From assembly GCF_015708085.1 (NCBI RefSeq), contig NZ_JADNYM010000006.1, positions 1 through 64,000 on the forward strand: a stretch of DNA of 64,000 bases, in the 5' to 3' direction. The stretch is from Arthrobacter terrae (GTDB lineage Bacteria; Actinomycetota; Actinomycetes; Actinomycetales; Micrococcaceae). The notes under the pieces are model-generated. The model did no database searches, was not told where the DNA came from, and saw only the letters and a program-made list of their open reading frames with translations. Shown here in pieces: positions 3,924-56,119 of this stretch. How positions within the stretch are numbered: the first letter of the stretch is position 1; each line of letters begins with the position of its first letter. Position numbers and translations under genes: made by a program.

Positions 3924-3945
3924 TCTACGCATGTTTCCCGGTAGG
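3924..3945 (+). promoter_or_regulatory. Motif A copy upstream of the FtsK-like translocase
   Basis: TCTACGCATGTT at 3924-3935 is followed by TCCCGGTAGG, so the outer TCTAC and GTAG(G) form an imperfect dyad. It lies 38 bp before the ATG at 3974, in the same orientation relative to its gene as the ten other copies. Confidence 0.7.
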
Positions 3946-3973
3946 GACATTGGCGAGACGAAAGGCCTACAGT

Positions 3974-5674
3974 ATGGCTTCCAGCACTGAACGCATCCGG
4001 GTGAGACTCCCCGAAAAGTTCGATCCTGCCCGGCACATGGTCCCGTTGATGAAAAAGATCACGGACACCCACGGTGAAGGCTTTGAGGTGGATTCCATCG
4101 AGGACGGCATGGCTGTGGCCACACGCCAGGTAGCTGTCACTGAGGTCAGCCACAACATCAAGAGCAAAACCAAAGAGGTCCGCCTCCCCCGATCCGTAAA
4201 GCCGACCGACGGCGAAAAGATGTCCGTGAAACTTGCCGACCAGCACGGTGACGGCTGGGAGATGACCAAATTCGAGCCGTACCTTGGCAAGGCGGTCCTA
4301 ACCCAGCTGAGCCCGGAAACAGCTCGCTGCCGTGGCGCCGCGGCGTTGGCACTGGGCGTGAAGCCCTGGGAGGTCCAGGTGACCCCGCGCAGGGACGGAG
4401 GCTTTGACCTGGAACTGCCGCGCACCTACATGCCTTCCAAGCATGACGCCAAACTTGAAGAAGTCGCCACCGGCGTTGTCGGCCGGGACGGCTGGTACGT
4501 GGCGGTAAACGCCCAGCAGCTCACAGCGTCCATCATCCCGTCCGCTCCCCCGACATTCCCGGAAGGCATTGCTTTCCCCCTTACCCGGCTTGGGAAGGGC
4601 AGCATCGACCGGACACCGTTCGGCATGGTCTTGCCGGATCCCGGCGCCGACGCAGGCGACGAAATCAGCATCGACTGGACCGCATCTGCGTGGGCGCTCG
4701 TTGCTGGTACTCCAGGATCTGGAAAAACAGTCACGCTGAATGCGATCATCGCCGACTCCCTGTCCAACGGATCAGCCCTCGCTATCGTCGACGACGTGTC
4801 AAAGGCTATCGACTTCGAGTGGGCTCGCCCGTTTTGCCGGCAGGGAGGCTGGGGTTGCGATTCACTGGAAGCCTCCGTCGGCACACTGGGTCTCATACGG
4901 GATGAAGGTGCCCGTCGAAGTAAAGTTCTCAAAGAATTGGGCATAAGCAACTGGCTGGACATGCCAGACGGGAGGCGCTTTCAGCCAATTCTTGTCATCA
5001 TTGATGAGGTGTCTGCCCTCGTTGTGCCGGACCCGGTCCCAAAGGGCATCCCGAAAGATCACCCCCTATTCCTGGAGATTGGCGAGCGGAATCTCGCCAG
5101 GGCGATGATCCAGTCATACATGCGAAAGATCATCGCCGAATTGCGTTTCGTCGGGGTTCGTATGGTTATCTCCACTCAGGCGACCAATGCCAACACAGGT
5201 GTAGATCCAGGCCTTCGCACGCTCATCGGGCACAAGATTCTGCAGGGCGTGAACCCATCTAAGGCGGCGCGTTCACAGATTTTTGCTGACGAGTCGGCCG
5301 TGCTCAACGTACCAGAAAATGTAAAGTCCGGCGGTAAACGCGCAAAGGGCGTGGGAGTAGCCGCACTGGAAGCAGACGCACCAGCTGTCTACAAGTCCTA
5401 CTACGCTACGACAGATGACTATCAGACGGCATTGAGGAAGCTCGGGATTGAAGAATCGTCGAATGCGGAGCCGAGCTCTAGAGATATCAACAAATACCTT
5501 CCCACGCTCGGAGACGAATCGGAAGCCACTGCCGCCCGCCGTGGAGCGATGAAAGACCCGATGGCGGAACTGATGGGCGATTCCGGCTACGACGAGAACG
5601 GCCGGCCACTGAAAGGTGCCGCACTGGCTGCGTCCCAGACCCGTGTGTTGTCAAACATGGCATCACGGGCCTAA
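3974..5674 (+). CDS. FtsK/SpoIIIE (TraB)-like DNA translocase
   Basis: This 566-residue ATPase carries a Walker A motif GTPGSGKT (about 245-252) and a Walker B ILVIIDE (about 339-345), with a later STQA sensor-like segment, as in FtsK/SpoIIIE-type translocases. In actinobacterial plasmids such proteins move double-stranded DNA during conjugation. The N-terminal 120 residues look like a tandem duplication: VRLPEKF/HGEGFEVDS is echoed by VRLPRSV/HGDGWEMTK. No transmembrane helix is evident, which is unusual for TraB-like proteins, so membrane anchoring may depend on a partner. The ATG at 3974 has GAAAGG upstream; a TTG at 3950 is less likely. A motif A copy precedes it. Its last 46 residues recur at the C-terminus of the next gene. 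A plasmid-partition role is possible. Confidence 0.75.
   Translation: MASSTERIRVRLPEKFDPARHMVPLMKKITDTHGEGFEVDSIEDGMAVATRQVAVTEVSHNIKSKTKEVRLPRSVKPTDGEKMSVKLADQHGDGWEMTKFEPYLGKAVLTQLSPETARCRGAAALALGVKPWEVQVTPRRDGGFDLELPRTYMPSKHDAKLEEVATGVVGRDGWYVAVNAQQLTASIIPSAPPTFPEGIAFPLTRLGKGSIDRTPFGMVLPDPGADAGDEISIDWTASAWALVAGTPGSGKTVTLNAIIADSLSNGSALAIVDDVSKAIDFEWARPFCRQGGWGCDSLEASVGTLGLIRDEGARRSKVLKELGISNWLDMPDGRRFQPILVIIDEVSALVVPDPVPKGIPKDHPLFLEIGERNLARAMIQSYMRKIIAELRFVGVRMVISTQATNANTGVDPGLRTLIGHKILQGVNPSKAARSQIFADESAVLNVPENVKSGGKRAKGVGVAALEADAPAVYKSYYATTDDYQTALRKLGIEESSNAEPSSRDINKYLPTLGDESEATAARRGAMKDPMAELMGDSGYDENGRPLKGAALAASQTRVLSNMASRA
5552..5638 (+). repeat. Tail repeat, copy 1 (end of translocase gene)
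   Basis: This 87-bp segment matches 6964-7050 with five differences read by eye. It encodes the KDPMA..LMGDSGYDENG..LKGAALAASQ part of the shared C-terminal tail, in frame in both genes. Confidence 0.9.
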
Positions 5675-5676
5675 TC

Positions 5677-7086: not shown

Positions 7087-7106
7087 CCTGCTCCGGACAC
7101 AGCAAA

Positions 7107-7136
7107 GCCCCGGCAGGGATTCTGCCGGGGCCTTTT
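7107..7136 (+). terminator. Rho-independent terminator after the endonuclease gene
   Basis: A perfect 10-bp stem (GCCCCGGCAG / CTGCCGGGGC, 7107-7116 and 7122-7131) is followed by a short T run. It ends the translocase-endonuclease transcript. Confidence 0.85.
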
Positions 7137-7160
7137 GTGCGGCAATGGAGCTTAGACGCT

Positions 7161-8421: not shown

Positions 8422-8433
8422 GGCCAGGAAACC

Positions 8434-16736: not shown

Positions 16737-17213
16737 TTACGGGCAGGCCGCGGCACCCTTTGCCTGTACGTCCAGTCCGGCGGTCGGCCCCTGGCTGACG
16801 TACCTGACGCAGTAGTTGGTTACCGCATCGCTGGAGGCCTTGATGACGTAGCCGAAGCCGTTGGCGTCAACGGTGCCGACGAAAGGCTTCGTGTCCGGCC
16901 CCTTGTTGACGGTCAGGAGCGAAGCAGTGACGTTGGCTGCGACGTACTTGGACTTGCCGGTCAGGGAGTAGTCGGATTCGACGGTCAGGGCCGCGTTGGA
17001 GACCTCACCGGCGAGGTTCTGAACGGCTGCCCGCTCGAAGTACTTGGAGAACTGCGGCAGGATCGCCAGCGCGAGGATGGCGATGATCGCCATACCGGCC
17101 ATGATTTCAATCAGGGAGAAACCGGCGTCGCGGCGCTTACGCCCGGCCGGTTCCTTGCTGATAACACGGGAGCGGGCTTCCTGCGGATCCAGGATGCTTG
17201 CAATATTGCTCAA
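16737..17213 (-). CDS. pilA: Major type IV pilin
   Basis: The 158-residue prepilin has a basic leader ending RKRRDAG, then FSLIEIMAGMAIIAILALAILPQF: the classical type IV pilin N-terminus with Gly-1, Phe+1 and Glu+5. The globular part has a C-terminal cysteine pair (NYCVRYV, AAACP) consistent with a disulfide loop. The start is a TTG at 17213 with AAAGG 8 bases upstream; the frame is open further back but would include motif A. Two motif A copies lie 77 and 148 bp upstream, the only gene here with a tandem pair. The prepilin peptidase, PilB, PilC and PilMNO are encoded within 10 kb. Confidence 0.88.
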   Translation of the reverse strand: MSNIASILDPQEARSRVISKEPAGRKRRDAGFSLIEIMAGMAIIAILALAILPQFSKYFERAAVQNLAGEVSNAALTVESDYSLTGKSKYVAANVTASLLTVNKGPDTKPFVGTVDANGFGYVIKASSDAVTNYCVRYVSQGPTAGLDVQAKGAAACP

Positions 17214-17279
17214 GGTGGAGCCTTTCTCAAGTCGGGCGTCGGTGCCTGCCCGGATGACGAGTGGTGTCTGTGTGGTGCC

Positions 17280-17301
17280 TACACCTGGGAACATGCGTAG
17301 A
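17280..17301 (-). promoter_or_regulatory. Motif A copy, pilA-proximal
   Basis: On the minus strand, the TCTACGCATGTT core at 17301-17290 is followed by CCCAGGTGTA. It lies 76 bp upstream of the pilA start. Confidence 0.7.
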
Positions 17302-17350
17302 TTTAGCGGCTGCACTCCTCCGCCTGGGCTTTTTCGGAAAAATCACATCT

Positions 17351-17372
17351 GCTACCGGAGAACATGCGTAGA
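17351..17372 (-). promoter_or_regulatory. Motif A copy, pilA-distal
   Basis: On the minus strand, the TCTACGCATGTT core at 17372-17361 is followed by CTCCGGTAGC. It is 71 bp from the first copy, close to seven helical turns. Confidence 0.7.
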
Positions 17373-17471: not shown

Positions 17472-18731
17472 TCAGTACGGGGAGATGACGTCACCGAGGC
17501 TGAAGTACGGGAGGTAGATGGCCAGGGCGATGATCAGCACCATTCCGGCGATCCCGATAAGGAAGACAGGCTGGACGTAGGCTTCCATATTGTTGGTCGT
17601 GTGGTCGACGTCGCGTTCGTAGAGCTTGCCGACCGCCCGGAGGGATTTGGCGGTTTCACCGGTGTTTTCGCCCAGGGCCAGGAACTTGAGCAGCATTTTT
17701 GGGAACAGCGGTTCCTCGCGCAGCGGCTCCATAATGGACTGTCCTTTGAGCTTTCCGTCCCGGGCTTTCAGGATGGCTTTCTCCATGACAATGTTGCCCA
17801 CCGACCCGGCGGTTATGGCCATCGCGTCGGTGATGTGGACGTTGTTTTCGGCCAGGGATGCCATGATGCGGCAGAATTTGGTCAGCGCAATATCCCGGAA
17901 CAGCTTCCCGAACACGGGAACTTTGAGTTTTAGCGGGTCCACGAATGCGCGGACATTTTCTTCTTTGGAGTTTCTCCGGTACCAGATGGTGCCGACGACT
18001 CCGACGACCGCCAGCAGCGGGACAGCCCAGGCCATCTGGGCGGACACCGCCATCACGACCTGGGTGAGGAAAGGCAGTGATGCCTTGCCGTGGCTGAGGT
18101 CTTTGTACATGGCGCCGAACTTGGGCACGACCCACATCATAAGGAACGCGAAGATGGCGGAGCTGAGGGCCAAAACGACCATCGGATAGGTGAGTGCCTT
18201 TTTGACTTTGGCGCGCTGCTCGTCTTCGTTTTCGAGGTCGTCAGCTACCTGATTGGCGGCGTCGGCCACGAACCCGCCCTCATCACCGGCTGCCAGAGTC
18301 TTTGTCATCAGATCAGGAAAAATGTACGGATGCCTGGCCATAGCCACGTGCATCTTGACGCCCTCGGAGCTCATGTCTTTCAGCACCTGCGTCAGCCCGT
18401 GCGCGAGGACGACGTCCCCGATTTCCCCGTCGTCGAGGATTTCGGTGATGGCTGCCCGTTCGTCGTAACCGACCTCCAGGTACATGGCCAGCTGCCGGCT
18501 GGAGGCGACCATGGCCCGTGCCTTAGGCCGGGACTTCTTTCCGACGACCGTTGTCCCGGTCTGGCGGACCGAAAGAATGGAGGTGTACTCAGGGTTCGCC
18601 GCCAGTTTGGCGATCGCCGCCTCACGGGTGGAGGCAACAGCTGTGCCGGACTTGGGTTTGCCGTCAAAGCCTTCGGCCCGGAACGCGAAGGTCTGGTTTT
18701 TCTTGGCCGGTGCTACCGCGGTGGTCGTCAA
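17472..18731 (-). CDS. pilC: Type IV pilus inner-membrane platform protein
   Basis: The 419-residue protein matches the PilC/GspF family: an N-terminal soluble region with FRAEGFDGKPKSGTAVASTREAAIAKL, two repeated GspF domains, and three hydrophobic segments (about 215-240, 260-285 and 395-415). Typical signatures are GDEGGFVADAANQVADDLE and ALGENTGETAKSLRAVGKLYERDVD. It forms the membrane platform on which PilB and PilT act. I chose the TTG at 18731, with CAGGAG upstream, over the ATG at 18794, because the latter would start inside the motif A region. Motif A lies 53-74 bp upstream of this TTG. Confidence 0.88.
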   Translation of the reverse strand: MTTTAVAPAKKNQTFAFRAEGFDGKPKSGTAVASTREAAIAKLAANPEYTSILSVRQTGTTVVGKKSRPKARAMVASSRQLAMYLEVGYDERAAITEILDDGEIGDVVLAHGLTQVLKDMSSEGVKMHVAMARHPYIFPDLMTKTLAAGDEGGFVADAANQVADDLENEDEQRAKVKKALTYPMVVLALSSAIFAFLMMWVVPKFGAMYKDLSHGKASLPFLTQVVMAVSAQMAWAVPLLAVVGVVGTIWYRRNSKEENVRAFVDPLKLKVPVFGKLFRDIALTKFCRIMASLAENNVHITDAMAITAGSVGNIVMEKAILKARDGKLKGQSIMEPLREEPLFPKMLLKFLALGENTGETAKSLRAVGKLYERDVDHTTNNMEAYVQPVFLIGIAGMVLIIALAIYLPYFSLGDVISPY

Positions 18732-18783: not shown

Positions 18784-18805
18784 TCTACCTGCAAACATGC
18801 GTAGA
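18784..18805 (-). promoter_or_regulatory. Motif A copy upstream of pilC
   Basis: TCTACGCATGTT followed by TGCAGGTAGA, read on the minus strand. This is the best dyad of the set: TCTAC and GTAGA pair perfectly around 12 bp. Confidence 0.75.
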
Positions 18806-18981: not shown

Positions 18982-19003
18982 CATGCAAGGGAACATGCGT
19001 TGA
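18982..19003 (-). promoter_or_regulatory. Variant motif A copy upstream of the 43-residue gene
   Basis: TCAACGCATGTT followed by CCCTTGCATG, read on the minus strand. It differs from the core at one base and has lost the GTAGA half. Confidence 0.55.
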
Positions 19004-19019: not shown

Positions 19020-19207
19020 GTTGAGGCCGGCCGGTGCTGCCGTACACATCAGGGATGCGAAATCAGCACGGAAACCGCCGCCACCTGACCGGTGTAAACG
19101 GTGACGGGGACGACGGCTTCCGTACACATAAAAGAGGTGAAAAACGGTACGGAAAATCAGCGGAGGCGCCCTGAAACGGGTAGCGGAAAAGCTGATGCCG
19201 CACACAT
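19020..19207 (+). promoter_or_regulatory. Three tandem motif B-like elements
   Basis: On the plus strand GTTGAG-17-TACACAT (19020-19049), GGTGAC-17-TACACAT (19100-19129) and GGGTAG-17-CACACAT (19178-19207) recur about every 79 bp. The spacing between boxes is 17 bp each time. They point away from the 43-residue gene and into the 3' end of the convergent lipoprotein gene. GTG codons lie 7 bp after the second and third boxes, and an ATG opening a 39-residue ORF (19055-19174) lies 5 bp after the first. No convincing plus-strand protein follows, so antisense or small RNA production is possible. Confidence 0.45.
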
Positions 19208-20672: not shown

Positions 20673-21553
20673 TTGGATGCTCCCTGGGTGGCCGCGGCCG
20701 GGTTGGTCGAATCAGTCGCCGGGTCCGGCGCAGCGGCCGGGGCCTCAATGGATGACAGCTCATCGGGGGACGGTTTGAACTTGTCTCCCTTGGCGGAGAG
20801 CGCCTGGCCGGTGTATCCGACAGTGAGTTTGAAGTCGACACCAGCTCCTGAGGACACCGATTCCTTCAAATACGGTTCGCTCAGCATGGTCTTGTCCCTA
20901 TTCAGCGCAGCCACCAGCTGGGACACCGCCGCGATGCTCGGTGCATTACCGGAAATGTCCAGGCAGCCCAGCGACGACGATGCGGCAAACGGGCTCGACG
21001 ATGTGCACTGCGTACCGGGGGCGGCCGTCTTAATGGCGGTGAACACAGCGCCGGAGGTATTGGCCTGCTGGACGGCCTGAACCACCTTGGAATAGGACAC
21101 ATCGTTCTGGAGTGCATCGGAGGCTGCCGCTTTACGCTTCACGAACCCGGTCGCATAGTCCTGGACGTCTCTGTTCTGTGCCAGGTAATTGGTTGTCGTA
21201 GTCGTAATGGCTGCCTCTTTATTCACCTCGTTCTGCGCCCCGGCCACTCCTGCGAGGACAAAGATGTAGCCGACCGCGGTGACCCCCATCAGGCCCAGGC
21301 CGATGAACGCCGACTGGCGCACCGCTTTCCTGCGCGCTTTCAGCCCGCGTGCCTTCACCGGTAACAGGATCAGGGACGGCTTGACCGGGGAAGCCCAGAC
21401 AGGTGCCGGGGCCGCCTTCACTGCAGGGGTTTTCGGACCTTTACCCTGCTTGGCCGTTTTGTCGGGCTTGGCTTCACGTCGGGCTTTGGGCGCAGCCTCG
21501 GCCTCGGCCTTTTTCGTCTTCGCCGGCTTCGGCTCGGTGGTGGATATCGCCAT
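20669..21553 (-). CDS. pilN: PilN-like pilus assembly protein
   Basis: The 294-residue protein has an Ala/Lys-rich cytoplasmic N-terminus (about 1-75), one transmembrane helix (SAFIGLGLMGVTAVGYIFVLAGVA, about 81-105), and a periplasm-side coiled coil plus alpha/beta domain. The short motif INLLP, which binds PilM in diderms, is represented by LILLPVKARGLKARR. The gene starts at an ATG overlapping the pilM stop (TGATG) and overlaps pilO at its end, so the three are coupled. The long Lys-rich N-terminal extension is unusual for the family. Confidence 0.8.
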   Translation of the reverse strand: MAISTTEPKPAKTKKAEAEAAPKARREAKPDKTAKQGKGPKTPAVKAAPAPVWASPVKPSLILLPVKARGLKARRKAVRQSAFIGLGLMGVTAVGYIFVLAGVAGAQNEVNKEAAITTTTTNYLAQNRDVQDYATGFVKRKAAASDALQNDVSYSKVVQAVQQANTSGAVFTAIKTAAPGTQCTSSSPFAASSSLGCLDISGNAPSIAAVSQLVAALNRDKTMLSEPYLKESVSSGAGVDFKLTVGYTGQALSAKGDKFKPSPDELSSIEAPAAAPDPATDSTNPAAATQGASK

Positions 21554-22608
21554 CAGGCTCGTGCTCCCATCGCCAGGCCGACAGCGGCCATGTAGTCAGT
21601 GCTGAGGATTGGACCAAGGTGGTGCCGTTCCGGGTCTCCGGCGATGTCGATCGCGTATCGTCCGGTCATGGTCCGCCAGCCCGTTGATTCCTGCAAAGTG
21701 GCCGGCAGATTGTGCACCAGCGATCCTCCGCCGATCAGGGTCAGCCCCGCCGGTGGCATTGCCGGCTCCGGACGGGTCCGCTGGTAGCTGTCCACGGCGC
21801 CCTGGATGGTGGAGGTCAGCTTGAACGCGTACTGGTCCATAGCCTGCTGCACCCGGTAGTCGCGGCTGAAGCTGACTTTTTCCTTGATGACGCGCTCCTG
21901 CGCATCGTCCTGCAGTGCGGCGGCAATGAGCTTATCCAAATCCCCGCCGGCGGCTCCGCGGTGCAGGGTCAGGGCGTACGGCTTCCCGCCCTCATGGATC
22001 AGTACGGAGGTGACGTCCTGGCCGATGTCGATGAGGACATCGAGCATCCCCGGGGCGCGGCTGGCAATCCAGCTGGCCTTCAGGGAAGCCATTGCTGCCA
22101 GGTCCGCGCCGGCTGCGTTCAGGCCCGCCTTCTGCAAGACCTGCAGCTGGGTTTCTACGGTTTTCTGTCCGACCCCGATCAGCAGGGCGTCGATTTTGCG
22201 CCGGTTTTCAGCATCGGTGACCTCGTCGAAGATGACGGCGTCGATGATCACCTCAGGGGGCGCGCCCAGTAGCAGTGCTTCGTCGGCGATGATGTCGAAG
22301 CCCACGGCCGTCTGATAATTTTTCGGCTCGTGCCACGGGGTGAGGGCACGGTTGACGTACACGTCCGCGGCGGAGTTGATGCCCATGACGGCGTCTTTGG
22401 TGGTGAACCTGGTGGCTGCCAGGAATGCCTTCAACTCGGTGGCGACCAGTTCCGCGTTTTCGGGTTTGATACCGCCGCTGCTGATGATGCCGGGATCCAG
22501 CGGCATGAAAGCCTGCCGGGTGACGGTGACGGCCCCTTTTTCGATGCTCACTTCGGCGAATTTCAGGCCCGTGGACCCGAAGTCGATGCCAATGACTTTT
22601 TCAGCCAA
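21553..22608 (-). CDS. pilM: PilM, actin-like pilus protein
   Basis: The 351-residue protein is a PilM/FtsA-type actin fold: VIGIDFGSTGLKFAEV (phosphate-1), VLIDIGQDVTSVLIH (phosphate-2) and LTLIGGGSLVHNLP (adenosine motif). It also has the PilM-typical GFDIIADEALLLGAPPEVIIDAV region. It is cytoplasmic and binds the N-terminus of PilN. The start is a TTG at 22608 with CAGGAAAC upstream. Motif A lies 41-62 bp upstream, facing the copy that serves pilB. Confidence 0.88.
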   Translation of the reverse strand: MAEKVIGIDFGSTGLKFAEVSIEKGAVTVTRQAFMPLDPGIISSGGIKPENAELVATELKAFLAATRFTTKDAVMGINSAADVYVNRALTPWHEPKNYQTAVGFDIIADEALLLGAPPEVIIDAVIFDEVTDAENRRKIDALLIGVGQKTVETQLQVLQKAGLNAAGADLAAMASLKASWIASRAPGMLDVLIDIGQDVTSVLIHEGGKPYALTLHRGAAGGDLDKLIAAALQDDAQERVIKEKVSFSRDYRVQQAMDQYAFKLTSTIQGAVDSYQRTRPEPAMPPAGLTLIGGGSLVHNLPATLQESTGWRTMTGRYAIDIAGDPERHHLGPILSTDYMAAVGLAMGARA

Positions 22609-22648: not shown

Positions 22649-22670
22649 TTCACCAGGGAACATGCGTAGA
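22649..22670 (-). promoter_or_regulatory. Motif A copy upstream of pilM
   Basis: TCTACGCATGTT followed by CCCTGGTGAA on the minus strand, 41 bp upstream of the pilM TTG. Its outer edge is 27 bp from the facing pilB copy. Confidence 0.75.
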
Positions 22671-22697: not shown

Positions 22698-22719
22698 TCT
22701 ACGCATGTTTGACGGTGAC
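22698..22719 (+). promoter_or_regulatory. Motif A copy upstream of pilB
   Basis: TCTACGCATGTT at 22698-22709 followed by TGACGGTGAC, 40 bp before the pilB ATG. With the pilM copy it makes a divergent, mirror-image arrangement. Confidence 0.75.
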
Positions 22720-22749: not shown

Positions 22750-24459
22750 ATGAGCACCTCCACTACCAGCCGGCTAGAAACCCACTTCGTGCAGCAGGAC
22801 ATCCTCACCGCGCGGGAGTTCGAGACCGCCGAACAGCAGGCGGCCACGCAGGGCCTCAATGTTCTGGCCTTCCTCAAAAAGCAGGGCCGGATCAGCCACG
22901 AGCAGACCTGTGAAGCCTTTGCCTTCCTGAAAGGGTGGACGTACAAACCTCTCCGGGATGACACTGTCATCCCCGCCGACGTCATCGCCCTGATTGAATT
23001 CCAGCTGGCCCGCAAACTCAATATCGTCCCGGTGGCGTTGGACGGTGACGACCTGACCGTGGCGTGCGTGAACCCGTTTGACGTCAACGTCACCAAACAG
23101 CTGCAATCCAAGACCGGGAAAAACATTACGGCGGTCTACTCTTCAACCAACGAGCTCACCCGCGCCGTCGGGCGGTTCTACTCCGCGTCCATCCAGGCCC
23201 AGCAGGTCGGCAAGCTTGCCGCCATGGATGTGAGTTCCGAAGCAGCCAGAACAAAAAGGCCGTCCCTGGTTGTTGTCGGGGATGAAGGCAATATCGTCAA
23301 CACCCTGGACGCCATCATTGAAGGCGCCCTTGAGGTCGGCGCCTCCGACATTCATTTTGAGCCGGCCTCCACTCACCTGACCGTCCGGTACAGCGTCGAC
23401 GGCAAGCTCCGCAACGAACCCGACCAGCCAAAAGAACTCGCCCCGCGGCTGGCCGGCCTGATCAAAACCCGCGCAAGGCTGTCCTCCAGCGAACTCGTCA
23501 ACCAGGACGGCGCGATTACCCACGAATTCCGGGGCAAATCCTATGACCTGCGGGTGGCGGTCCTTCCGGCGGCGTGGGGCGAATCGATCACATTGCGCAT
23601 GGGCGCCTCGGAAGCCTGGAAGCTGGGCCAGATCGGTTTCTCCGAGGACACCGAAGCCCAATGGCGCCGATCCATCAACCAGCCCAACGGCATCTGCCTG
23701 GCGGTCGGGCCCATGGGGTCCGGTAAAACATCCCTCCATTACGCTTCCCTGGACGCGCTCATGGGTCAGGGCCGGAAAATCGTCTCCCTGGAAAACCCGG
23801 TCGAAATGAAACTTCCTAACGGTATGACGCAGGTCAGCATCAACGAACCCCAGGGCCTGACCTGGGACGGCGGCATGGAAACGGTGCTCCGGTCCGCGGC
23901 GTCCGTCCTGTTTGTCGGTGAAATCAACAAGGACGCCATCGCGCATACCGCCGTGACGGCCGCCATCACCGGTCACCTGGTGCTCTCCACCCTGCACACC
24001 AACGACGCCCCCGGCGCGGTGCTGCGGCTGCGCGAAATGGGGTTGCGGCCCTCGGTCCTGGCCGACTCGATGCGCGCCGTCTGCGCCCAGCGGCTCCCCC
24101 GACGGTTGTGCAAATGCAAGACTCCCACCCCTCCGGGCCAGGACATGATCCGGGACTTCAAGCTCACCGACGAAGACCTGCGGGCCGTTGACCCTGTGAC
24201 CGGGCTTTCCCTGTGGTACGGGCCCAAAGGCTGCCCGGAATGCAACGGGACCGGTTACAAGGGCCGGCTCCCGATCCATGAACTGATGACTTTCCCGCGC
24301 CACATCAGGGACCTCATCACGGACGATGTGCCCAACCGGGTCCTTGCCGACGCCGCCAAAGCCAACGGCATGCTCACTCTCCAGGACGACGGGCTGCTCA
24401 AAGTCCGTGCAGGGCTCACCAGCCTTGAAGAAGTCCGCAGCCATATTCTGATCGACTAG
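22750..24459 (+). CDS. pilB: Pilus extension ATPase
   Basis: The 569-residue protein belongs to the GspE/PilB family: an N-terminal MshE-like domain (about 1-150), Walker A GPMGSGKTS (about 320-328), an Asp box/Walker B FVGEINKD, and STLHTNDAPGAVLRL. It ends with the family's zinc-binding cysteines (CKCKTPTPP, CPECNGTGYKGR). It hydrolyses ATP to extend the pilus. The Walker B region carries GEINKD instead of the usual GE(I/M)RD. The ATG at 22750 fits the family N-terminus, although the frame is open far upstream. A motif A copy sits 40 bp before it and pilT follows after 13 bp. Confidence 0.9.
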   Translation: MSTSTTSRLETHFVQQDILTAREFETAEQQAATQGLNVLAFLKKQGRISHEQTCEAFAFLKGWTYKPLRDDTVIPADVIALIEFQLARKLNIVPVALDGDDLTVACVNPFDVNVTKQLQSKTGKNITAVYSSTNELTRAVGRFYSASIQAQQVGKLAAMDVSSEAARTKRPSLVVVGDEGNIVNTLDAIIEGALEVGASDIHFEPASTHLTVRYSVDGKLRNEPDQPKELAPRLAGLIKTRARLSSSELVNQDGAITHEFRGKSYDLRVAVLPAAWGESITLRMGASEAWKLGQIGFSEDTEAQWRRSINQPNGICLAVGPMGSGKTSLHYASLDALMGQGRKIVSLENPVEMKLPNGMTQVSINEPQGLTWDGGMETVLRSAASVLFVGEINKDAIAHTAVTAAITGHLVLSTLHTNDAPGAVLRLREMGLRPSVLADSMRAVCAQRLPRRLCKCKTPTPPGQDMIRDFKLTDEDLRAVDPVTGLSLWYGPKGCPECNGTGYKGRLPIHELMTFPRHIRDLITDDVPNRVLADAAKANGMLTLQDDGLLKVRAGLTSLEEVRSHILID

Positions 24460-27266: not shown

Positions 27267-27428
27267 TTAGCCCTTTTTGGTGGGCGTAATCCCCGTCTGG
27301 ACGGGGGAAAAGTCGATGACACCCGTCACGGACAGCGCCATGAAAATCAGGGCAACGCCGAGGATGACCCCGAGGATGATGCGGCTCTTGGTGGACGTGT
27401 TGGCCCATTCACTGCGAAGGCGATCCAT
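27267..27428 (-). CDS. 53-residue membrane protein under motif A
   Basis: The ATG at 27428 has GGAGAAA upstream and opens a 53-residue protein. It has a charged N-terminus (DRLRSEWANTSTKSR), one transmembrane helix (IILGVILGVALIFMALSVTGVI) and a short outside tail. Motif A lies 102-123 bp upstream. It may be a small pilus accessory protein like the 43-residue one at 18.8 kb. The in-frame extension to 27572 would include motif A and is unlikely. Confidence 0.6.
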   Translation of the reverse strand: MDRLRSEWANTSTKSRIILGVILGVALIFMALSVTGVIDFSPVQTGITPTKKG

Positions 27429-27529: not shown

Positions 27530-27551
27530 TCTGCCAAGGAACATGCGTAGA
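27530..27551 (-). promoter_or_regulatory. Motif A copy upstream of the 53-residue gene
   Basis: TCTACGCATGTT followed by CCTTGGCAGA on the minus strand, between the genes ending at 27562 and starting at 27428. Confidence 0.7.
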
Positions 27552-31388: not shown

Positions 31389-31410
31389 TCTACGCATGTT
31401 TCTTGATGGG
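31389..31410 (+). promoter_or_regulatory. Motif A copy upstream of the sigma-like gene
   Basis: TCTACGCATGTT at 31389-31400 followed by TCTTGATGGG, 50 bp before the TTG start at 31451. Confidence 0.7.
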
Positions 31411-31450: not shown

Positions 31451-32182
31451 TTGTCCGTCGCAACCACACCGGGTCTCATGCCGCCTGTCACGAGCGAATC
31501 CACAGAGCTGCTGCAGGTCCTGGCATCCATGCCAATGTCCGATCCGGCATACGGCACCTGGTGGAGCACCGCCGAAGGCCGTTGGCTGTACAACGAGATC
31601 AGCATACGGGTCGGATCCCCGCTGGCCGCATCGCTCCAGCACAAATTCGGCGTCCACTACGAGCCCGCCGATGTCGCCAACACCGCGTTCATGGTCCTTC
31701 GCCAGGATTTCGTCTACGCGTACGTCCTGCGGGCAGACGACCCGTGGGCGTACCTGTCCCAGATGCTCAAACGGGAGATGCTCTCCGCTGCCGGTGCCTA
31801 CTTCCGGGTCGAGCTCACCGACGACGCGATATTCGATTCCACCATCCCTCCGGCCGAGCAGGCCGCCGTATCAGTCCATGACGCCGCTGATCTGACATAC
31901 AAGGTACTGGCACCATCCGCGCCCGAACACCTGCACTCCAGCTTGAAAGACGCCATCCTCTACTTCGCCGAACTCGGCGGCGCGCGTCTGAGCCACCTTT
32001 ACACCCATGCGAGTTCGGACACTGAGCTCACCAGTCTGGGTCTGGTCCGTGATGAGATCCTCGCGAAAATTACCCGTTTTTTGCGCGGTACGGCACTTCT
32101 GTATGTGAGCCCGAAAGAAAAGGCCGCCGGCCCTGCCGTCCTCGATCCCGCCAGCATCATGATTTACGAGGCCCCGAAATGA
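31451..32182 (+). CDS. Sigma-factor-like protein
   Basis: The 243-residue protein resembles an ECF sigma factor. A region-2-like segment (SPLAASLQHKFGVHY, then EPADVANTAFMVLRQDF, then DPWAYLSQMLKREML) lies near 60-120. A later segment (LHSSLKDAILYFAELG, then LGLVRDEILAKITRFLRG) has the look of region 4. The match is distant and the C-terminus is longer than usual. The TTG at 31451 has AAGGGA upstream. Motif A precedes it, and its stop overlaps the ATG of the RCC1 pilin (ATGA). If real, it could direct RNA polymerase to motif A or B. Confidence 0.45.
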   Translation: MSVATTPGLMPPVTSESTELLQVLASMPMSDPAYGTWWSTAEGRWLYNEISIRVGSPLAASLQHKFGVHYEPADVANTAFMVLRQDFVYAYVLRADDPWAYLSQMLKREMLSAAGAYFRVELTDDAIFDSTIPPAEQAAVSVHDAADLTYKVLAPSAPEHLHSSLKDAILYFAELGGARLSHLYTHASSDTELTSLGLVRDEILAKITRFLRGTALLYVSPKEKAAGPAVLDPASIMIYEAPK

Positions 32183-37596: not shown

Positions 37597-38811
37597 CTAG
37601 AACGCCTCGGGATCCAGATAGCGGGGGCTAGCCGGGTCATTTTTTTCCGGCACGGTCGGTGCCGGAGCGTGCACGTCCACCCGGCGGGCAGCGGGCAGGC
37701 CGGTCTTCCTGGTTGGGACCGGTTGGGCGTTCCGGGATGGGGCTGTGTTCACCGGCGCCGGAGCGGGAGCGACATTCACGACCGGGCTCACCCCGGCGGA
37801 TCGGGAGGAGGCCACTGCTTCGGCGCGCATACGGGCGCGTTCCACGTGTCCCTGACCGATACCGGATTCCGGCTTGTGGCCGGTCGGGCAGGTGTGGGCC
37901 ACCAGTGCAGAGGTGAAGCGGAGGCATTTGCCGCACTGGACGACAGCTGCCCGCTGGTGGGCGCGGACGAGCTTGTTGAAGACCTGGCCGGGACGCTCCG
38001 AGACTTTCACGGCTTCGAAGAACTGCTTGGAGACTTTGTGGCCGTACAGCTTGTTACCGATCCGGGTGGCCATCGTGTTCGTGTTCTCGTCGAAGCCGAC
38101 TTCATCAATCCAGGACGAGGAAACCGGGGACAGTTCGGCGCCCTTCGCTGCCTCCCGGGCTTTGCGTGCCGCCAGCAGATCCGGGACCCTTGCCAGGGCC
38201 ATGGTCACGCGGCGGGATTCCAGGACGGCCGCAACGGCTTCGGCGACCTGCTCGCCGGCGGGGCCGCCGTTACCGCCCAGTGTGGTGGTCTCCCAGGAAT
38301 GCGGACCGCTCTTGGTGACACGTACCCAGCCCTGGACGGGGGCGCCGCCCTTCAGCGCCACGGACACCGGCACATCAAAGGTGGGGTTGCCGTTGTCGCC
38401 GGAGAAGCGGCGGATGGCCGTTGCGGACGGCATGCGCAGCTGGATGTCCTCGTTGCCGTAGTTCATCCGGTGCGTGCGCCGCTTACCTGACATGGCCTGA
38501 CCGGTGTGCATGGATGGGGTGTCGTCGTCGGGCATCTGCGGGTACGACTTGCCTTCGGCACGGTACTCGGCGGCGACGAAGTTACGGTTCCACCATTCCT
38601 CACGGTGCTCGGTCGTGGTGGGTGCGTTCATCGCCTGCATGGTGGCTGCGGGGACAAATCCATGGGTGCGCAGCAGGTCGCGCCGAATAGCCATGGCCTG
38701 GCGGTGCCGGGCAACAGCCAGGACGGCCCCGGGCTCGGCGTGTGCGTATGCGGCGTACTGTCCGCCGACGGGGATGCCTTTAGGCTGACGGGGTGTGGGA
38801 TCGTTGCTCAT
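37597..38811 (-). CDS. KTSC-domain protein with a zinc knuckle
   Basis: The 404-residue protein contains a KTSC domain (about residues 228-290: SSWIDEVGFDENTNTMATR, YGHKVSKQFFEAVK, PGQVFNKLVR), a small fold found at the C-terminus of some lysyl-tRNA synthetases and in phage proteins. A zinc knuckle (CGKCLRF...HTCP) and a Pro/Ala-rich tail follow. The N-terminal half is unrecognised. The ATG at 38811 sits exactly 7 bp after CACACAG, with no ribosome-binding site, so the gene is probably leaderless. The function of KTSC in such proteins is unknown; nucleic-acid binding is likely. Confidence 0.65.
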   Translation of the reverse strand: MSNDPTPRQPKGIPVGGQYAAYAHAEPGAVLAVARHRQAMAIRRDLLRTHGFVPAATMQAMNAPTTTEHREEWWNRNFVAAEYRAEGKSYPQMPDDDTPSMHTGQAMSGKRRTHRMNYGNEDIQLRMPSATAIRRFSGDNGNPTFDVPVSVALKGGAPVQGWVRVTKSGPHSWETTTLGGNGGPAGEQVAEAVAAVLESRRVTMALARVPDLLAARKAREAAKGAELSPVSSSWIDEVGFDENTNTMATRIGNKLYGHKVSKQFFEAVKVSERPGQVFNKLVRAHQRAAVVQCGKCLRFTSALVAHTCPTGHKPESGIGQGHVERARMRAEAVASSRSAGVSPVVNVAPAPAPVNTAPSRNAQPVPTRKTGLPAARRVDVHAPAPTVPEKNDPASPRYLDPEAF

Positions 38812-41145: not shown

Positions 41146-41192
41146 TCTCCTGAGAGGTAAGGGAGGCGGTTGCCTCGTTTTGCTTACCTCTC
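41146..41192 (-). promoter_or_regulatory. Nested hairpin in the MoxR-gene leader
   Basis: GAGAGGTAAG pairs with CTTACCTCTC (41192-41183 with 41161-41152), enclosing a second stem GAGGC/GCCTC (41176-41172 with 41167-41163). The AGGAGA ribosome-binding site (41151-41146) abuts the outer stem. This suits translational control or protection of the 5' end. Confidence 0.6.
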
Positions 41193-42416: not shown

Positions 42417-43331
42417 TTAGTGGTGCGCGGTCCAGGTGTCGGAGCGCCGGGCCACGCCGTACACGACGTCGACCCACTCAGGCGGAAAGACAGGAGCCGC
42501 GCCGTTGATGGTGCCCACCAGATCCACTCCTACCACCAGCCCCTCATAATTGCTGGCGACGCTCATTGTTGACCAGATGGCCACCAGCGGCCGGCACTGC
42601 AGGTCCATCCTGGCGGCTACAGACAGATGCTCCCCCGCTACGGTTGCGTCCCGGATAATCGACTCGACCCATTTCTGCCGGTACCCGTCCGAATACACCG
42701 CACCGTCAGCTTTGGCCGTGACGTCATACGTGGTGGACTTCGTATTGATCGCCCACAAACCGGTCGGGCCGATCACCAGGTGGTCGATGTCTTTCCGCGG
42801 GCTTAGCGGTACCGAATGCAGTATCCGGTAACCGGTCCGTTCCAGGCCGGCCAGGACCCCGGCTGTGCGCTGCTCGCCGGCGACCCCGGCCCGGTAGGAG
42901 GCGTCTTCATGACCGTCGATCAGTTGCCCTGGCCGATGGGCGGCAAGATCAGTCCATGGCAGGACATCCACGGCGGGAGGTGATGGCAACAGGTGGGTCT
43001 CGCCGGACTGCGCTGCGTGGATAAAGTGCCGTGCAGCGGTGAGTGGTGACAGGCCAGCGAGTGCACGCTGCAGCAGATCTCCGGTCCCTGCCGAATCCGG
43101 GACGGCATCGAGGGTGGCCAGGTCCAGGTAGCCGACCTTCGTCCCGTCAGACAAGTTGATGTACAGCCGGCGGAGGTCTTTCAGCTTCCACGGGTTGTAG
43201 ACGAACTCGACCACGGGCTTGGCCAGCGGCACTGGAGGCGCCGCAGGTGCCGGAGGTTCAGCGACCGCCAGTGCACCGCCGACCGTCTCGGCTGTCCCGG
43301 ATCTGGACTTCATCCACGCGAACTCGACCAT
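42417..43331 (-). CDS. NERD-domain nuclease-related protein
   Basis: The 304-residue protein has a NERD domain around 145-265: AGVAGEQRTAGVLAGLERTGYRILHSVPLSPRKDIDHLVIGPTGLWAINTKS, with the catalytic-type E, D-H and NTK (in place of EVK/DSK) residues. Such proteins are thought to cut or process DNA. The N-terminal 140 residues have an Ala/Pro-rich section and an unrecognised part. ATG at 43331 with AAAGGGAG upstream. Motif A lies 24-45 bp upstream. Confidence 0.78.
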   Translation of the reverse strand: MVEFAWMKSRSGTAETVGGALAVAEPPAPAAPPVPLAKPVVEFVYNPWKLKDLRRLYINLSDGTKVGYLDLATLDAVPDSAGTGDLLQRALAGLSPLTAARHFIHAAQSGETHLLPSPPAVDVLPWTDLAAHRPGQLIDGHEDASYRAGVAGEQRTAGVLAGLERTGYRILHSVPLSPRKDIDHLVIGPTGLWAINTKSTTYDVTAKADGAVYSDGYRQKWVESIIRDATVAGEHLSVAARMDLQCRPLVAIWSTMSVASNYEGLVVGVDLVGTINGAAPVFPPEWVDVVYGVARRSDTWTAHH

Positions 43332-43354: not shown

Positions 43355-43376
43355 TCTACCAGGGAACATGCGCAGA
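43355..43376 (-). promoter_or_regulatory. Motif A copy upstream of the NERD gene
   Basis: TCTGCGCATGTT followed by CCCTGGTAGA on the minus strand, a one-base core variant that keeps both dyad halves. Confidence 0.7.
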
Positions 43377-49474: not shown

Positions 49475-49477
49475 CAC

Positions 49478-53300: not shown

Positions 53301-53331
53301 GTACCGTATTCGACTCGTTGAACCCCGCCAT
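50302..53331 (-). CDS. hsdR: Type I restriction enzyme, R subunit
   Basis: The 1009-residue protein has a PD-(D/E)xK nuclease core near the N-terminus (FD140LVLFVNGIPLVVIE154TK156). The SF2 motor follows: Walker A HHTQGSGKT (294-302), DEAH (393-396), GFTGTP, and motif VI-like QTITRTNR. It translocates and cuts DNA when the HsdM/HsdS complex finds an unmodified site. The ATG lies 4 bp after the hsdS stop, so the subunits are co-expressed. It is full length for the family. Confidence 0.93.
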   Translation of the reverse strand: MAGFNESNTVQRPILDLLVGAGWKHIPGYQLDRHTEDVLIEADLLTALARLNPAVAEAPERAAELLSPLRSLMLSAREDGLVPTNQHFLEWLRGQKTHRFTGRDVFDPVQLIDFTNPAANILVVSDEVTFGTQGHFCRFDLVLFVNGIPLVVIETKTRLDARITWLKAAHEIHTIYEPGWAEFFVPNAFSVATDGKDFHYGAAGQDIESWGVWGNTEEEILPAGWPRVKRSVELLLNPETVLSVVADFTVFELKAKHSGVPRLNKIVPRYPQVEAVRAIHTRALHSTKRQGLIHHTQGSGKTLAMLFAAVKLVNEPRLKNPSIVLIADRVQLVTQMYRQFLRAGMPSLEAPENAADLRRILGEDRRGIIFTTVHKFKNAGVLNTRENIIVLVDEAHRTQEGQLGKFLRAAFPNARFFGFTGTPIADEDRNTYELFGDPDDPNHAMNTYDSDRSIADGTTVPMHVSPRLVDFHIRKTDLDKAFDELAAEEGLTEDEQEYVAAKATDTRTFFANLERVEKVCADIIDHFYSIIDPLGMKAQVVAYDRALCVAYQEELARQLKARAGGGTPDEAVIVMSVQSKDEPGWQEHKLTDLGEENILNRFRQLGDPLKFIVVTAKLGTGFDAPIEGVMYLDKPMKLHTLYQTITRTNRNWKNPLTGQEKRYGLIVDYVGLGDGFARAMSPANPEHARKEIEIGSLLEQFEIEIANVLDRFAGIDRNNTGFEALQAAHDRLPDDKALERFAAQYGMLQGIWEAAYPDLRLENHRSDYKWLSKVYASVAPADDTRDLLWHRLGAKTLELVHGHIGEVTVRDTGVDVVIADEGTIKRLIEAGVIDPDAGSGETQVTTAAEVVDNIASRLRKRLEGTNGDHPVYKTLSERLERLRERQLAKAQESVDFLRDLLDLARDVAAAEKAEDESGVPGLDLLPDPNTGALTQIFEEYRPEGVPVIVGKVVADIDAIVKEVRWDGWNNTKEGDKAVRIAIRKVLVRYGLPASGDLFDHAYAYVSENY

Positions 53332-53335
53332 GAAA

Positions 53336-54556
53336 TTACGCCCCCATTAGTTCGTCATACGTCTCAGGCATTCTATGTGCACCCGATAGCAGGGCAGAAA
53401 GTAGTTCGGCCCGGAGGGAGCGAAGTGACTGTGCATGACTTTCCTGCTCGTTCGAGACTGAGAGGAACGATTCCGCCAACTCACAGAACGCCGACTGGTC
53501 TTCTCGTGAAACCGGAAGAATGATCTTGGTGTGAGTCAAGTACTGAGGAATGTTGAGGTTGCGGATGCCGGTAGTGAACTTCTGAAACGGCAGCGGGGCG
53601 TCTTGCTTGTACATCAGCCACATCACCCAGAACACGTAGGACGGATCGACGATGGCAGTGTCCGGTCTCAGAAGGCGCATGAAGTCCGACGGAACAACAT
53701 TTGGTGGTGTGTTGCGGCCACGAATTACGCGCCCCACAGGTTGAGTTGGTGAGCCACCGGACCGCTCAAGGACAACGTCACCAGCTTGGATGGTTCGGAC
53801 TGCGGCACGCTTGAAAGAAAGACTTCTGCGGCTACCCAGCGCCGCGTCAACTTCCGTATGCCCATTGGCGTAGGCACTCGGACCGATTGCGACAACGTCC
53901 GTGTCCTCGGCGCCTGGCTCGCTTCCCCATGATCCACCGATGACGTGGCTGAACACCGACTCCAGAGGGAGAGGTGTGCCAACCATTCCGGCGTACGCCG
54001 AGGCCAGACTGCGGACGCTAACAGAATCAAGGGTCTGCCGATTGGCATTGGCTGATTCGATGGCATCGTCCACGGCGCCGATCAGGTCAACGATGCGCCG
54101 CTGCTCGTCCAGAGATGGGACCGTCAGCTTAAGTTCCAAGAATCGATGGACATCGAGCCGAACCCGGTTCGTTGTGCCAGCTGAGACTTTGTCGCACAGG
54201 TCGGCGAATGCCGCACTCCGGACAATGATGCTGAAGTACTTCTTTGAGACCACGGCTTCATCGACGACATAGGACAGGAAATCGCCTGTGACTACGGCGC
54301 CGTCCAGCTCCGGTGGAAGGAGCGAATTCGAGCCTTTGCGTGCATCGATCTTGGAGATCATTAGGTCTCCCGTGCGCACCTCGAACCGGGCAGTCCCGAG
54401 TTCTGAGCCAAAGCAAACCTTTCTGAGCCTGGCCCCTTTCCCGTAGAGCGGAAGCGTGACCATTTTGTAGGAGGCCTCGGGGTCGATCGTGGCCTTTCTT
54501 CGAATCGGCGAGAGGAAGTCCGAGAATCTCATGCCTACCCGCGCTTCAGAAGTCAA
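53336..54556 (-). CDS. hsdS: Type I restriction-modification specificity subunit
   Basis: The 406-residue protein has the two-target-domain architecture: a first target-recognition domain (about 10-125), a conserved helix (VPSLDEQRRIVDLIGAVDDAIESANANRQTL), a second target domain (about 165-340), and a second conserved helix (PVSREDQSAFCELAESFLSVSNEQE). The two domains should recognise a bipartite sequence. It overlaps the end of hsdM by 11 bp, with a TTG start and AAGGCGG upstream. Confidence 0.88.
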   Translation of the reverse strand: MTSEARVGMRFSDFLSPIRRKATIDPEASYKMVTLPLYGKGARLRKVCFGSELGTARFEVRTGDLMISKIDARKGSNSLLPPELDGAVVTGDFLSYVVDEAVVSKKYFSIIVRSAAFADLCDKVSAGTTNRVRLDVHRFLELKLTVPSLDEQRRIVDLIGAVDDAIESANANRQTLDSVSVRSLASAYAGMVGTPLPLESVFSHVIGGSWGSEPGAEDTDVVAIGPSAYANGHTEVDAALGSRRSLSFKRAAVRTIQAGDVVLERSGGSPTQPVGRVIRGRNTPPNVVPSDFMRLLRPDTAIVDPSYVFWVMWLMYKQDAPLPFQKFTTGIRNLNIPQYLTHTKIILPVSREDQSAFCELAESFLSVSNEQESHAQSLRSLRAELLSALLSGAHRMPETYDELMGA

Positions 54557-56063
54557 AGCCAGCCGCCTTCAGCTTGTCCGCCAGCACTTCTTCGACCGCT
54601 GCGAGCCGTTCGCGGCTTTCCTGGTAGGCGATGAGGGCTTCCTCAACATTGGCTTCGCCGACACTCTCGGTCTTGATGTAACGGCCAATGTTCAGATCGA
54701 AACCGTTCTCCTCAAGCTCCTCCATGCCGACCAGACGGAGGCTCAGCCCGCCTTCACCGTCGATGTCTTTGCCTTGCTTGTAGGCCGCGTCGATGACCTC
54801 GATGTCCTCATCCGACATGGTGTTCTGGTTCTTGCCCGAGACGAACCGTTTGGACGCGTCGATGAACAGGACCTTGTCCCGGCGTTCGGCCGGTTTCTGC
54901 CTCCGGAAGATGAGCAGACACACCGGGATGGACGTCGAGTAGAAGAGGTTGTTAGGCAGGCCAATGACGGCCTCGAGCAGGTCCTTGCGGATCAGGCATT
55001 CCCGGATGGCGCCTTCTTTGCCACCGCGGAACAGCACGCCGTGCGGCATGACGACGCCGACCCGGCCGGTGTCTTCCTTCATGGAGGCAACCATGTGCTG
55101 GATCCAGGCGTAGTCGCCGTTCTTGGCTGGCGGGACACCGCAGATGACCCGGCTATAGGGGTCGTTGGTCCAACCTTCGGCACCCCAGTTCTGCAGCGAG
55201 AACGGCGGGTTGGCGATGACGACGTCGAATTTCTGCAGACCGTCGCCGTCCAGAAGCTTCGGTTCCCGGAACGAGTCACCCCGGACGATTTTGAACTCCT
55301 TGAGCCCATGCAGGTACAGGTTCATCTTCGCGATGGCGCTGGTGGTCAGGTTGATTTCCTGCCCGTGCAGGTGAAGGGTCCGGGCGTCCCCACCGGCCTC
55401 CTTCACCGCCGTGACCGTCTCGACGAGCATGCCACCGGAACCGCAGGCAGGGTCCGCGATGGTGTCCCCCGGCTTCGGGGCCAAGATCTTCACCAGAAGG
55501 TGCACCACATGGCGCGGTGTGAAGAATTCGCCGGCCTTCTTCCCAGACGCTTCGGCGAACTCCCGCAGCAGATACTCATACGCGGAGCCGAGCATGTCGC
55601 CGTTGACGCTGTCCGGGTCTAGCCGGACCGAATGGAACGAGTTGAGCAGCGCGGCCAGCGCGGTTTGGGGAAGGCGTTCCTGGTTGGCCCACTGCACGTC
55701 GCCGAAGACGCCGGCGAGGGCGTCCGGGTTAGCCTGCTGGATGCGCTGCATGGCGTTGTCCAGCTTCACCCCGGTCTGGTGCGCGGTCTCGATGACATCA
55801 ACCCAGTGGCAACCGTCCGGGATGGCGAACGTATGGTAATCCGCCTCAATCTCATCCGTCAGGGCATCCCCGAAGTCTTCGATTGCGCGGACCCGCTCGT
55901 GGTCCCAACTGTCGCTGATCCACTTGAAGAACATCACCGGGAAGACATAGGCCTTGAAGTCTCCAGGATCAACGGGCCCCCGCAGGGCGTTGGCAGCCGA
56001 CCACAGGGTCGATTCCAACTGTCGCTGGGACAGGTGTCCGGGCTCGGTGGTGGAGAGCGTCAA
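54546..56063 (-). CDS. hsdM: Type I DNA methyltransferase subunit
   Basis: The 505-residue protein is an N6-adenine methyltransferase: an HsdM N-terminal helical domain, motif I DPACGSGG (204-211), motif IV NPPF (283-286), and a C-terminal part with the typical RRDKVLFIDASK segment. The start is a TTG at 56063 with GAGGA upstream. A motif A copy lies 35-56 bp upstream, so the restriction system shares a regulatory signature with the pilus genes. Confidence 0.92.
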   Translation of the reverse strand: MTLSTTEPGHLSQRQLESTLWSAANALRGPVDPGDFKAYVFPVMFFKWISDSWDHERVRAIEDFGDALTDEIEADYHTFAIPDGCHWVDVIETAHQTGVKLDNAMQRIQQANPDALAGVFGDVQWANQERLPQTALAALLNSFHSVRLDPDSVNGDMLGSAYEYLLREFAEASGKKAGEFFTPRHVVHLLVKILAPKPGDTIADPACGSGGMLVETVTAVKEAGGDARTLHLHGQEINLTTSAIAKMNLYLHGLKEFKIVRGDSFREPKLLDGDGLQKFDVVIANPPFSLQNWGAEGWTNDPYSRVICGVPPAKNGDYAWIQHMVASMKEDTGRVGVVMPHGVLFRGGKEGAIRECLIRKDLLEAVIGLPNNLFYSTSIPVCLLIFRRQKPAERRDKVLFIDASKRFVSGKNQNTMSDEDIEVIDAAYKQGKDIDGEGGLSLRLVGMEELEENGFDLNIGRYIKTESVGEANVEEALIAYQESRERLAAVEEVLADKLKAAGFDF

Positions 56064-56097
56064 GATGATCCTCGTTCAGTCGTCAATGGGCTGTGTC

Positions 56098-56119
56098 TCT
56101 ATCCGTAAACATGCGTAGA
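56098..56119 (-). promoter_or_regulatory. Motif A copy upstream of hsdM
   Basis: TCTACGCATGTT followed by TACGGATAGA on the minus strand. The dyad is kept as TCTAC and ATAGA. Confidence 0.7.

Follow-up and report, generated by a model that had tools for sequence, protein, structure and literature searches.

The first 64,000 bases of contig NZ_JADNYM010000006.1 of Arthrobacter terrae (the window; assembly GCF_015708085.1, contig C56) contain eleven copies of a 12-base word, TCTACGCATGTT. We propose that this word, here called class A, is part of a promoter private to a group of ~375–440 kb plasmids of the Micrococcaceae, a reading to which we give a probability of about 90%. Class A is confined to these plasmids, has a fixed orientation and position ahead of genes, is conserved, and carries a start-site signature; each plasmid examined also encodes a divergent sigma-70 homologue, sigmaB-cand. 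From these features we infer that class A acts as a promoter in vivo, with sigmaB-cand as its putative reader.

Class A copies in the window

Nine of the eleven copies are exact, and those at 18992 (TCAACGCATGTT) and 43365 (TCTGCGCATGTT) carry one mismatch each. The original prediction, made from the window itself, had described eleven copies of a single sequence, all upstream of genes and reading toward the start codon. Its eleven coordinates are correct, and every copy (3 on the plus strand, 8 on the minus) is indeed directed at the next gene start, but the identity of sequence holds for only nine. The sites at 17290 and 17361 share one pilin gene as their target. With up to two mismatches allowed, the window gave 11 matches, compared with a mean of 2.66 and a maximum of 9 in 100 shuffles, and a weight matrix of the extended site (≥15 bits) returned the identical 11 sites and no others. 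The cores and their targets are listed below, with the predicted transcription start of each site.

3924..3935, plus: class A core, exact; predicted start 3943; FtsK-like target; site at the ortholog in W01–W04 (see below)
3974..5674, plus: FtsK/SpoIIIE-like gene (Pfam E 6.9e-05, just under cut-off)
16737..17222, minus: pilin gene (N_methyl)
17290..17301, minus: class A core, exact; predicted start 17282; pilin target
17361..17372, minus: class A core, exact; predicted start 17353; same pilin target
17472..18731, minus: pilC-like gene (T2SSF)
18794..18805, minus: class A core, exact; predicted start 18786; pilC target
18992..19003, minus: class A core, one mismatch; predicted start 18984; tiny open reading frame (ORF); site likewise before a tiny ORF annotated in W01
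21553..22608, minus: pilM-like gene
22659..22670, minus: class A core, exact; predicted start 22651; pilM target
22698..22709, plus: class A core, exact; predicted start 22717; pilB target, divergent from pilM
22750..24459, plus: pilB-like gene (T2SSE, MshEN); start set by eye
27267..27428, minus: gene for a small protein of 53 amino acids (aa)
27540..27551, minus: class A core, exact; predicted start 27532; site also in W01 and W02
31389..31400, plus: class A core, exact; predicted start 31408; target A2
31478..32182, plus: A2, weakly sigma-like protein
42417..43331, minus: NERD-domain gene, accessory target
43365..43376, minus: class A core, one mismatch; predicted start 43357; NERD target
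54546..56063, minus: hsdM, accessory target
56108..56119, minus: class A core, exact; predicted start 56100; hsdM target

Confinement to a group of plasmids

C56 is 191,881 bases long, in an assembly of 4,434,392 bases and 63 contigs. All 25 exact genomic copies of class A lie on C56 and on a second contig, C45 (194,810 bases), which together make up 386,691 of the 4,434,392 bases. With one mismatch allowed, 42 of 49 copies fall on these two contigs; the other 7 are single and scattered, and a reversed-pattern control found 5. Complete plasmids rich in the word are Paenarthrobacter sp. YJN-5 pYJN5-1 (W01, 440 kb), P. chlorophenolicus A6 pACHL01 (W02, 427 kb), a Pseudarthrobacter sp. BIM B-2242 plasmid (W03, 418 kb) and an Arthrobacter caoxuetaonis plasmid (W04, 375 kb), with 36, 37, 26 and 18 copies at ≤1 mismatch and 1, 0, 0 and 1 in the reversed control. 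A fifth matching complete-plasmid record, from Deinococcus, was left out as its match covered only 63 bases. Genes from the two contigs have their W01 counterparts in separate regions, and we therefore read C45 and C56 as one plasmid, which would be circular and ~387 kb in size.

Among the first 59 genomes searched besides this one, two held one exact copy each. Among 395 genomes of the family, only three had more than 3 copies of TCTACGCATGTY (27, 13 and 12), and these are exactly the three that encode full-length sigmaB-cand (one of them, G339, is W04, judging by its coordinates). A comparable density of class A is absent from the other 392, and the class is confined to the plasmid. The shuffles, the reversed-pattern control and the 395-genome survey rule out chance occurrence of the word. 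A mobile repeat is likewise ruled out, as the flanks of the copies are unlike beyond the element. Window positions 32000–56000 had no near match in phage records, and sigmaB-cand had no protein-level match there and none confirmed in viral contigs; on these grounds a phage origin was rejected. In a genome without full sigmaB-cand, one 20-kb locus (L136, G413:C45:46001-66000) has three class A sites, two of them strong and one weak, in a span of 6.5 kb, and is perhaps a remnant of such a plasmid.

Start-site signature

In an alignment of 42 copies, the 12-mer is mostly preceded by A or G and followed by a pyrimidine, C, two free bases, G, G, a pyrimidine and a purine. The architecture is one-sided, consisting of TCTACGCATGTT, a 7-base spacer and a pyrimidine-purine start. 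In the same alignment no column from −40 to −4 of the first T exceeds 0.27 bits (0.34 at −3); with no conserved block upstream of the word, no −35 element is seen. As a promoter, TCTACGCATGTT would be the core, at about −19 to −8 with no conserved −35, and the predicted transcription start is a purine that follows a pyrimidine, 19 bases beyond the first T; at some genes it would be the start codon itself.

At ≥15 bits, a matrix of 26 positions found 176 class A sites, and 0 on the reversed sequence, in the five plasmids that had also supplied its seeds. A held-out sixth plasmid (contig 2 of genome G344, outside training) gave 29 sites, again with 0 in the reversed control. In the pooled set of 205 sites from all six plasmids, a pyrimidine-purine step stands at −1/+1 in 192. 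This step keeps the same distance from the word in every relative, while the letters between differ in W03 and W04. ATG or GTG stands exactly at +1 in 50 of the 205, a count partly expected because the consensus itself contains GGTG (GTG occurs 44 times at position 17). By a simple purpose-written gene caller, a gene starts within 150 nt on the strand pointed to for 164 of the 205 sites and on the other strand for 43, compared with 8.5% of random points; 11 sites fall inside called genes, compared with 78% of random points. In the protein encoded by the coupling-protein gene C45_154055 and in four orthologs, the common sequence begins at the +1 ATG, and the residues ahead of that ATG are those that the promoter letters would encode. 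With homology starting at the +1 ATG, some class A transcripts are probably leaderless.

Targets and conservation

Twenty-seven marked genes of the A. terrae plasmid have an ortholog in W01–W04, and 24 of them keep the site in at least one relative. The site was found at 72 of 90 ortholog instances of marked genes versus 6 of 800 for unmarked genes, a figure in which part of the conservation reflects short divergence, because this plasmid, W01 and W02 are closely related. W03 and W04, where the targets conserved in all four relatives show 42–73% protein identity, keep the site too. Site-to-gene spacing is similar among orthologs (for pilC, 55, 53, 55, 51 and 55 nt). Ten genes have a class A site in all four relatives:

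C56_3974, the FtsK-like gene
pilC
C45_154055, TraD/VirD4-like (TraG-D_C only at E 0.0015)
a gene for a 55-aa protein, followed by genes annotated NERD-like and FtsK in W01
an HNH gene
a CHAP-hydrolase gene
a gene leading to an AAA_10 (VirB4-like) gene
a gene transcribed divergently from the helicase-sigma gene (see below)
a 113-aa gene beside sigmaB-cand
C56_170049

By the assignment made here, the pilin gene, pilB and C56_145311 keep the site in three relatives; pilM keeps it in the three relatives where it was called as a gene, and in W02, where the gene call failed, the pilM and pilB sites are both present. A DNA methylase gene has the site in all three relatives that possess the gene. Several other sites have no conserved counterpart, including those of hsdM and the window NERD gene. 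In the window, two sites 71 bp apart (17290–17372) precede one pilin gene, and W01 has two sites and two pilins; a pilin gene may therefore have been lost from between the window sites.

The class A targets, as predicted from their products, are united mainly by type IV pili and by the passage of DNA through the cell envelope. The original prediction had joined pili, DNA transfer and defence in a single regulon. The distribution of the site in the relatives is not random, which leaves a regulon unrefuted, and the pilus and DNA-transfer genes do share a cis-element kept in four relatives. The defence part is weak: for hsdM (54546–56063) the four relatives have no reciprocal-best ortholog, and for the NERD gene of the window (42417–43331) only W02 has one, with no site assigned there. 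A different NERD-like gene lies within a conserved operon marked by class A.

A second private class

Counting words upstream of genes revealed a second and larger class, class B, [GT]CCGCACACAT. Of 93 genomic copies of KCCGCACACATR, 92 are on C45 and C56, and a class B matrix, trained on these same plasmids, found 177 sites at 12 bits on the two contigs with 0 in the reversed control (1 in W01). Unlike class A, class B has a block near CGGGGA 16–21 bases ahead of the seed, at −35. Counting from the first C of CCGCACACA, the predicted start lies 17 bases on, and an ATG falls exactly there in 419 of 959 seeds. By the gene calls made here, class A lies just upstream of 36 of the plasmid's 402 genes and class B of a further 127. 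Segregation of the two classes is slight on the A. terrae contigs (C56, 35 switches versus 40.9 (sd 3.8) shuffled; C45, 28 versus 30.2 (2.9)) and stronger in W04 (34 versus 46.7 (3.3)). Class B sites in the window lie at 41185, 59485, 60702, 61280, 62644 and 63960. Three class B-like sites also stand in a row on the plus strand at 19057, 19137 and 19215, with no called start within 200 nt.

Both classes seem to persist, with drifted letters, on more distant plasmids. Three Curtobacterium plasmids of 546–608 kb (W05–W07; W06 is pS16) encode sigmaB-cand homologues of 28–32% identity; the sigma matches there reach only 38–45 bits, and the one from W06 is similar to its W03 and W04 counterparts. 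TCTACGCATGTT at ≤1 mismatch was not found on the three. Words enriched upstream of genes in W06 are CCGCGCATAG, CGCCGCAT and CCGCGCACA. Within 110 nt, YCGCCGCAT precedes 5 of 8 W06 orthologs of conserved class A genes versus 10 of 79 others (p 0.003), and CCGCGCATA or CCGCRCACA precedes 11 of 24 class B orthologs versus 7 of 63 others (p 0.0008); these p values are optimistic, because the upstream sequences of many genes had been viewed before the words were chosen. One of the 8 class A orthologs carries a class B-like word. The drifted class A appears to share TC..CGCAT with the original.

Candidate readers

We give odds a little better than even to the proposal that class A is read by sigmaB-cand (C45:51935-52960, 341 aa). 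Its gene is present in all 5 elements compared, at 47.8–86% identity to the A. terrae protein, and in G344; on W02 (NC_011879.1) it occupies 357317-358354. Besides the three family genomes with the full-length gene, a distant and partial match occurs in a fourth, and 12 further matches are limited to an N-terminal tag. The protein matches nine NCBIfam families, all of them sigma factors (best E 6.3e-05), and among nine homologues 18 of the 20 NCBIfam families matched are sigma factors. Region 2 is recognisable (Sigma70_r2 in 4 of 5, best 0.0042), and a profile alignment to sigma-70 spans regions 2–3 (E 3.1e-04). No match to region 4 was listed, which in so divergent a protein does not establish that the region is absent. 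In hhalign, sigmaB-cand aligned with extracytoplasmic function (ECF) sigma factors at 44% probability (E 2.3e-04), compared with ≤5.3% for 60 control families of 83 eligible; the test is insensitive, because a true sigmaA-like alignment scored only 0.43%.

The N-terminal tag of sigmaB-cand resembles RQPKGVPVGGQFAATTHAEP. Like tags occur on 32 of 402 predicted proteins of C45 and C56 that are otherwise unlike (for example, window 37597–38811) and, by a simple pattern, on 28/471, 33/503, 23/519 and 19/428 proteins of W01–W04; we would guess at a translocation or sorting signal.

Several observations weigh against this assignment and the promoter model behind it. All sigma matches of sigmaB-cand lie below curated cut-offs, and no single sigma family is matched by more than 6 of 9 homologues. 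PHROGs and Pfam also list single non-sigma matches, such as phrog_448 at 0.004 in one member. Sequence matches in PDB were not significant. The fold model of the ISL-65 homologue is poor (predicted local distance difference test, pLDDT, 45.9), and a Foldseek search with it listed many sigma chains, but none of its 53 matches reached E 0.001 (best 0.084). Co-occurrence cannot tell sigmaB-cand from other genes of the same plasmids. No class A site lies within 1500 nt ahead of its gene on six plasmids, so no autoactivation is seen. In W06, 3 of the 8 class A orthologs (pilB, pilC and a DnaJ-like gene) lack YCGCCGCAT. Finally, all the evidence comes from sequence.

Of six Micrococcaceae plasmids, five have the predicted class B +1 exactly where sigmaB-cand begins, and in W03 it is one base off. 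For the helicase-sigma gene, the class B +1 falls on the first base or one base away in 4 of 5 plasmids, with no class B site there in W03. Class A precedes A2 in all four plasmids that have A2. Class B before sigmaB-cand and class A before A2 suggest the order B, sigmaB-cand, A, and we tentatively propose such a cascade, at somewhat less than even odds. At the sigmaB-cand promoter of 6 of 6 Micrococcaceae plasmids, CTGCGCRTTT, ~25 bases upstream, replaces the CGGGGA block (L020:12960-13070 and orthologs; by eye), and could possibly be a control site.

The best-placed alternative reader, though rather unlikely, is the plasmids' other sigma, a sigmaA-like protein. All five elements have it, and with regions 2, 3 and 4 that each pass the Pfam cut-off it is a bona fide sigma. 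On this plasmid it is part of helicase-sigma (C45:32641-35616, or L019:12641-15616; minus strand; 991 aa), in which superfamily 2 (XPB-like) helicase domains are followed by sigma-70 regions and a helicase-associated domain; it is also fused in W01 and W02 (NC_011879.1 377249-380221 in the latter) and is a free sigma in W03 and W04. By eye, its regions 2.4 and 4.2 resemble those of the housekeeping factor, which would predict a −35 element; class B has one and class A does not. Moreover, no sigmaA-like protein was found in W05–W07, nor by an ortholog search in W06, yet at least W06 still has a class A-like word.

Alternatively, class A could be an operator for an activator or repressor acting on ordinary promoters, as the original prediction implied in describing a TCTAC-N12-GTAGA dyad. 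The consensus does look slightly dyad-like: mean complementarity at this centre is 0.40, the highest of 14 centres tested (next, 0.35). GTAGA, however, occurs in only 19 of 205 sites, and the arms do not covary, the five pairs being complementary in 82, 80, 105, 114 and 135 of the 205 sites compared with 74.0, 80.9, 110.4, 107.6 and 135.5 expected from independent columns. We therefore rejected a dyad operator, and with the fixed orientation and the fixed distance to the pyrimidine-purine step also against it, an operator of any kind seems unlikely. Class A is strongly supported as a shared cis-element, and its asymmetry points to a promoter-like element.

That A2 (31478–32182) reads class A and controls itself would fit its position behind the element and the weak Sigma70_r2 match (E 0.0099) of one ortholog, but is quite unlikely: Pfam (at E 0.1) gave no family for the A. 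terrae protein and NCBIfam no sigma family, and no reciprocal-best ortholog exists in W03 or W06, which have the motif or its variant. The A2 structure model has a pLDDT of 37.8. Very improbable are a plasmid-encoded single-subunit (phage-type) RNA polymerase, which would suit a contiguous ~20-base promoter without −35 but for which PF00940 found no match in this genome or W01–W04 (nor in control genomes either), and an RNA-level leader element, which would explain the position ahead of gene starts but not the start codon exactly at position 19 in 50 of 205 sites, with varying distances to other starts.

Other features of the plasmids

A cluster of 24 tRNA-like genes (one with an unclear anticodon) and a transfer-messenger RNA gene lies at ~148.4–157.2 kb of C56 (L015:8425-17245), with one tRNA apart (L017:824-898). 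Intein/homing-endonuclease domains occur in an SNF2-like protein (L020:15791-18553) and an AAA_10 (VirB4-like) protein (L021:9882-13769). On pYJN5-1, genes annotated as aph(6)-Id and aph(3'')-Ib occur twice, together with IS1133 (NZ_CP053545.1 261890-292593), one of the two copies adjoining a Tn3-family transposase.

Discussion

A literature search, with most subscription journals outside its scope, found no paper on the class A motif or on transcription of these plasmids. By analogy, the closest published case appears to be SigN (ZpdN) of pBS32 in Bacillus subtilis. That report describes a plasmid-encoded sigma whose regulon lies on the same plasmid and uses a promoter consensus of its own, with −35 and −10 elements; the authors' analysis detected no promoters of this kind in the chromosome, and the sigN gene is autoactivated and LexA-repressed (PMC6751061). 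As with SigN, class A is confined to the plasmid and a candidate sigma gene lies on the same plasmid. Unlike SigN, class A has no −35 and does not precede the candidate sigma gene, there is a second private promoter class, the targets concern pili and transfer, and the system is known from sequence alone.

The absence of a −35 recalls T4 late promoters, which have a contiguous −10-type element without −35 and are read by the divergent small sigma gp55. Class A differs from them in sequence and GC content, and the only sign of homology between sigmaB-cand and gp55 was a single Foldseek match without significance (E 2.6). ECF factors have a region 2 similar to that of sigmaB-cand. ECF promoters have a −35, and sigmaB-cand, unlike ECF factors, aligns weakly over region 3, which they lack.

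Under the proposed model, the sigmaB-cand gene would itself be transcribed from a class B promoter, and its product would direct host RNA polymerase to pilus and DNA-transfer genes. More speculatively still than the cascade, the whole may form a two-tier private programme hardly tied to host promoters, in which leaderless-prone class B would answer to a plasmid sigma, joined to an XPB-like helicase on some of the plasmids, and would turn on a −10-only sigma of the gp55 type; that sigma would then fire class A for pili and DNA transfer. Such a split would have lasted across two bacterial families. The fused helicase could open GC-rich promoters with ATP, and the promoter letters would have drifted, presumably together with their readers.

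Plasmid typing software classed 8 of 8 records of this family as non-mobilizable. If the proposal is true, large plasmids typed as non-mobilizable carry a dedicated switch for pilus and transfer genes, and deleting or inducing that switch would allow a test of whether these plasmids move, and by what route. The proposal would further provide an orthogonal promoter pair for Actinobacteria and, in the sigma-helicase fusion, a protein with which to test ATP-driven promoter opening.

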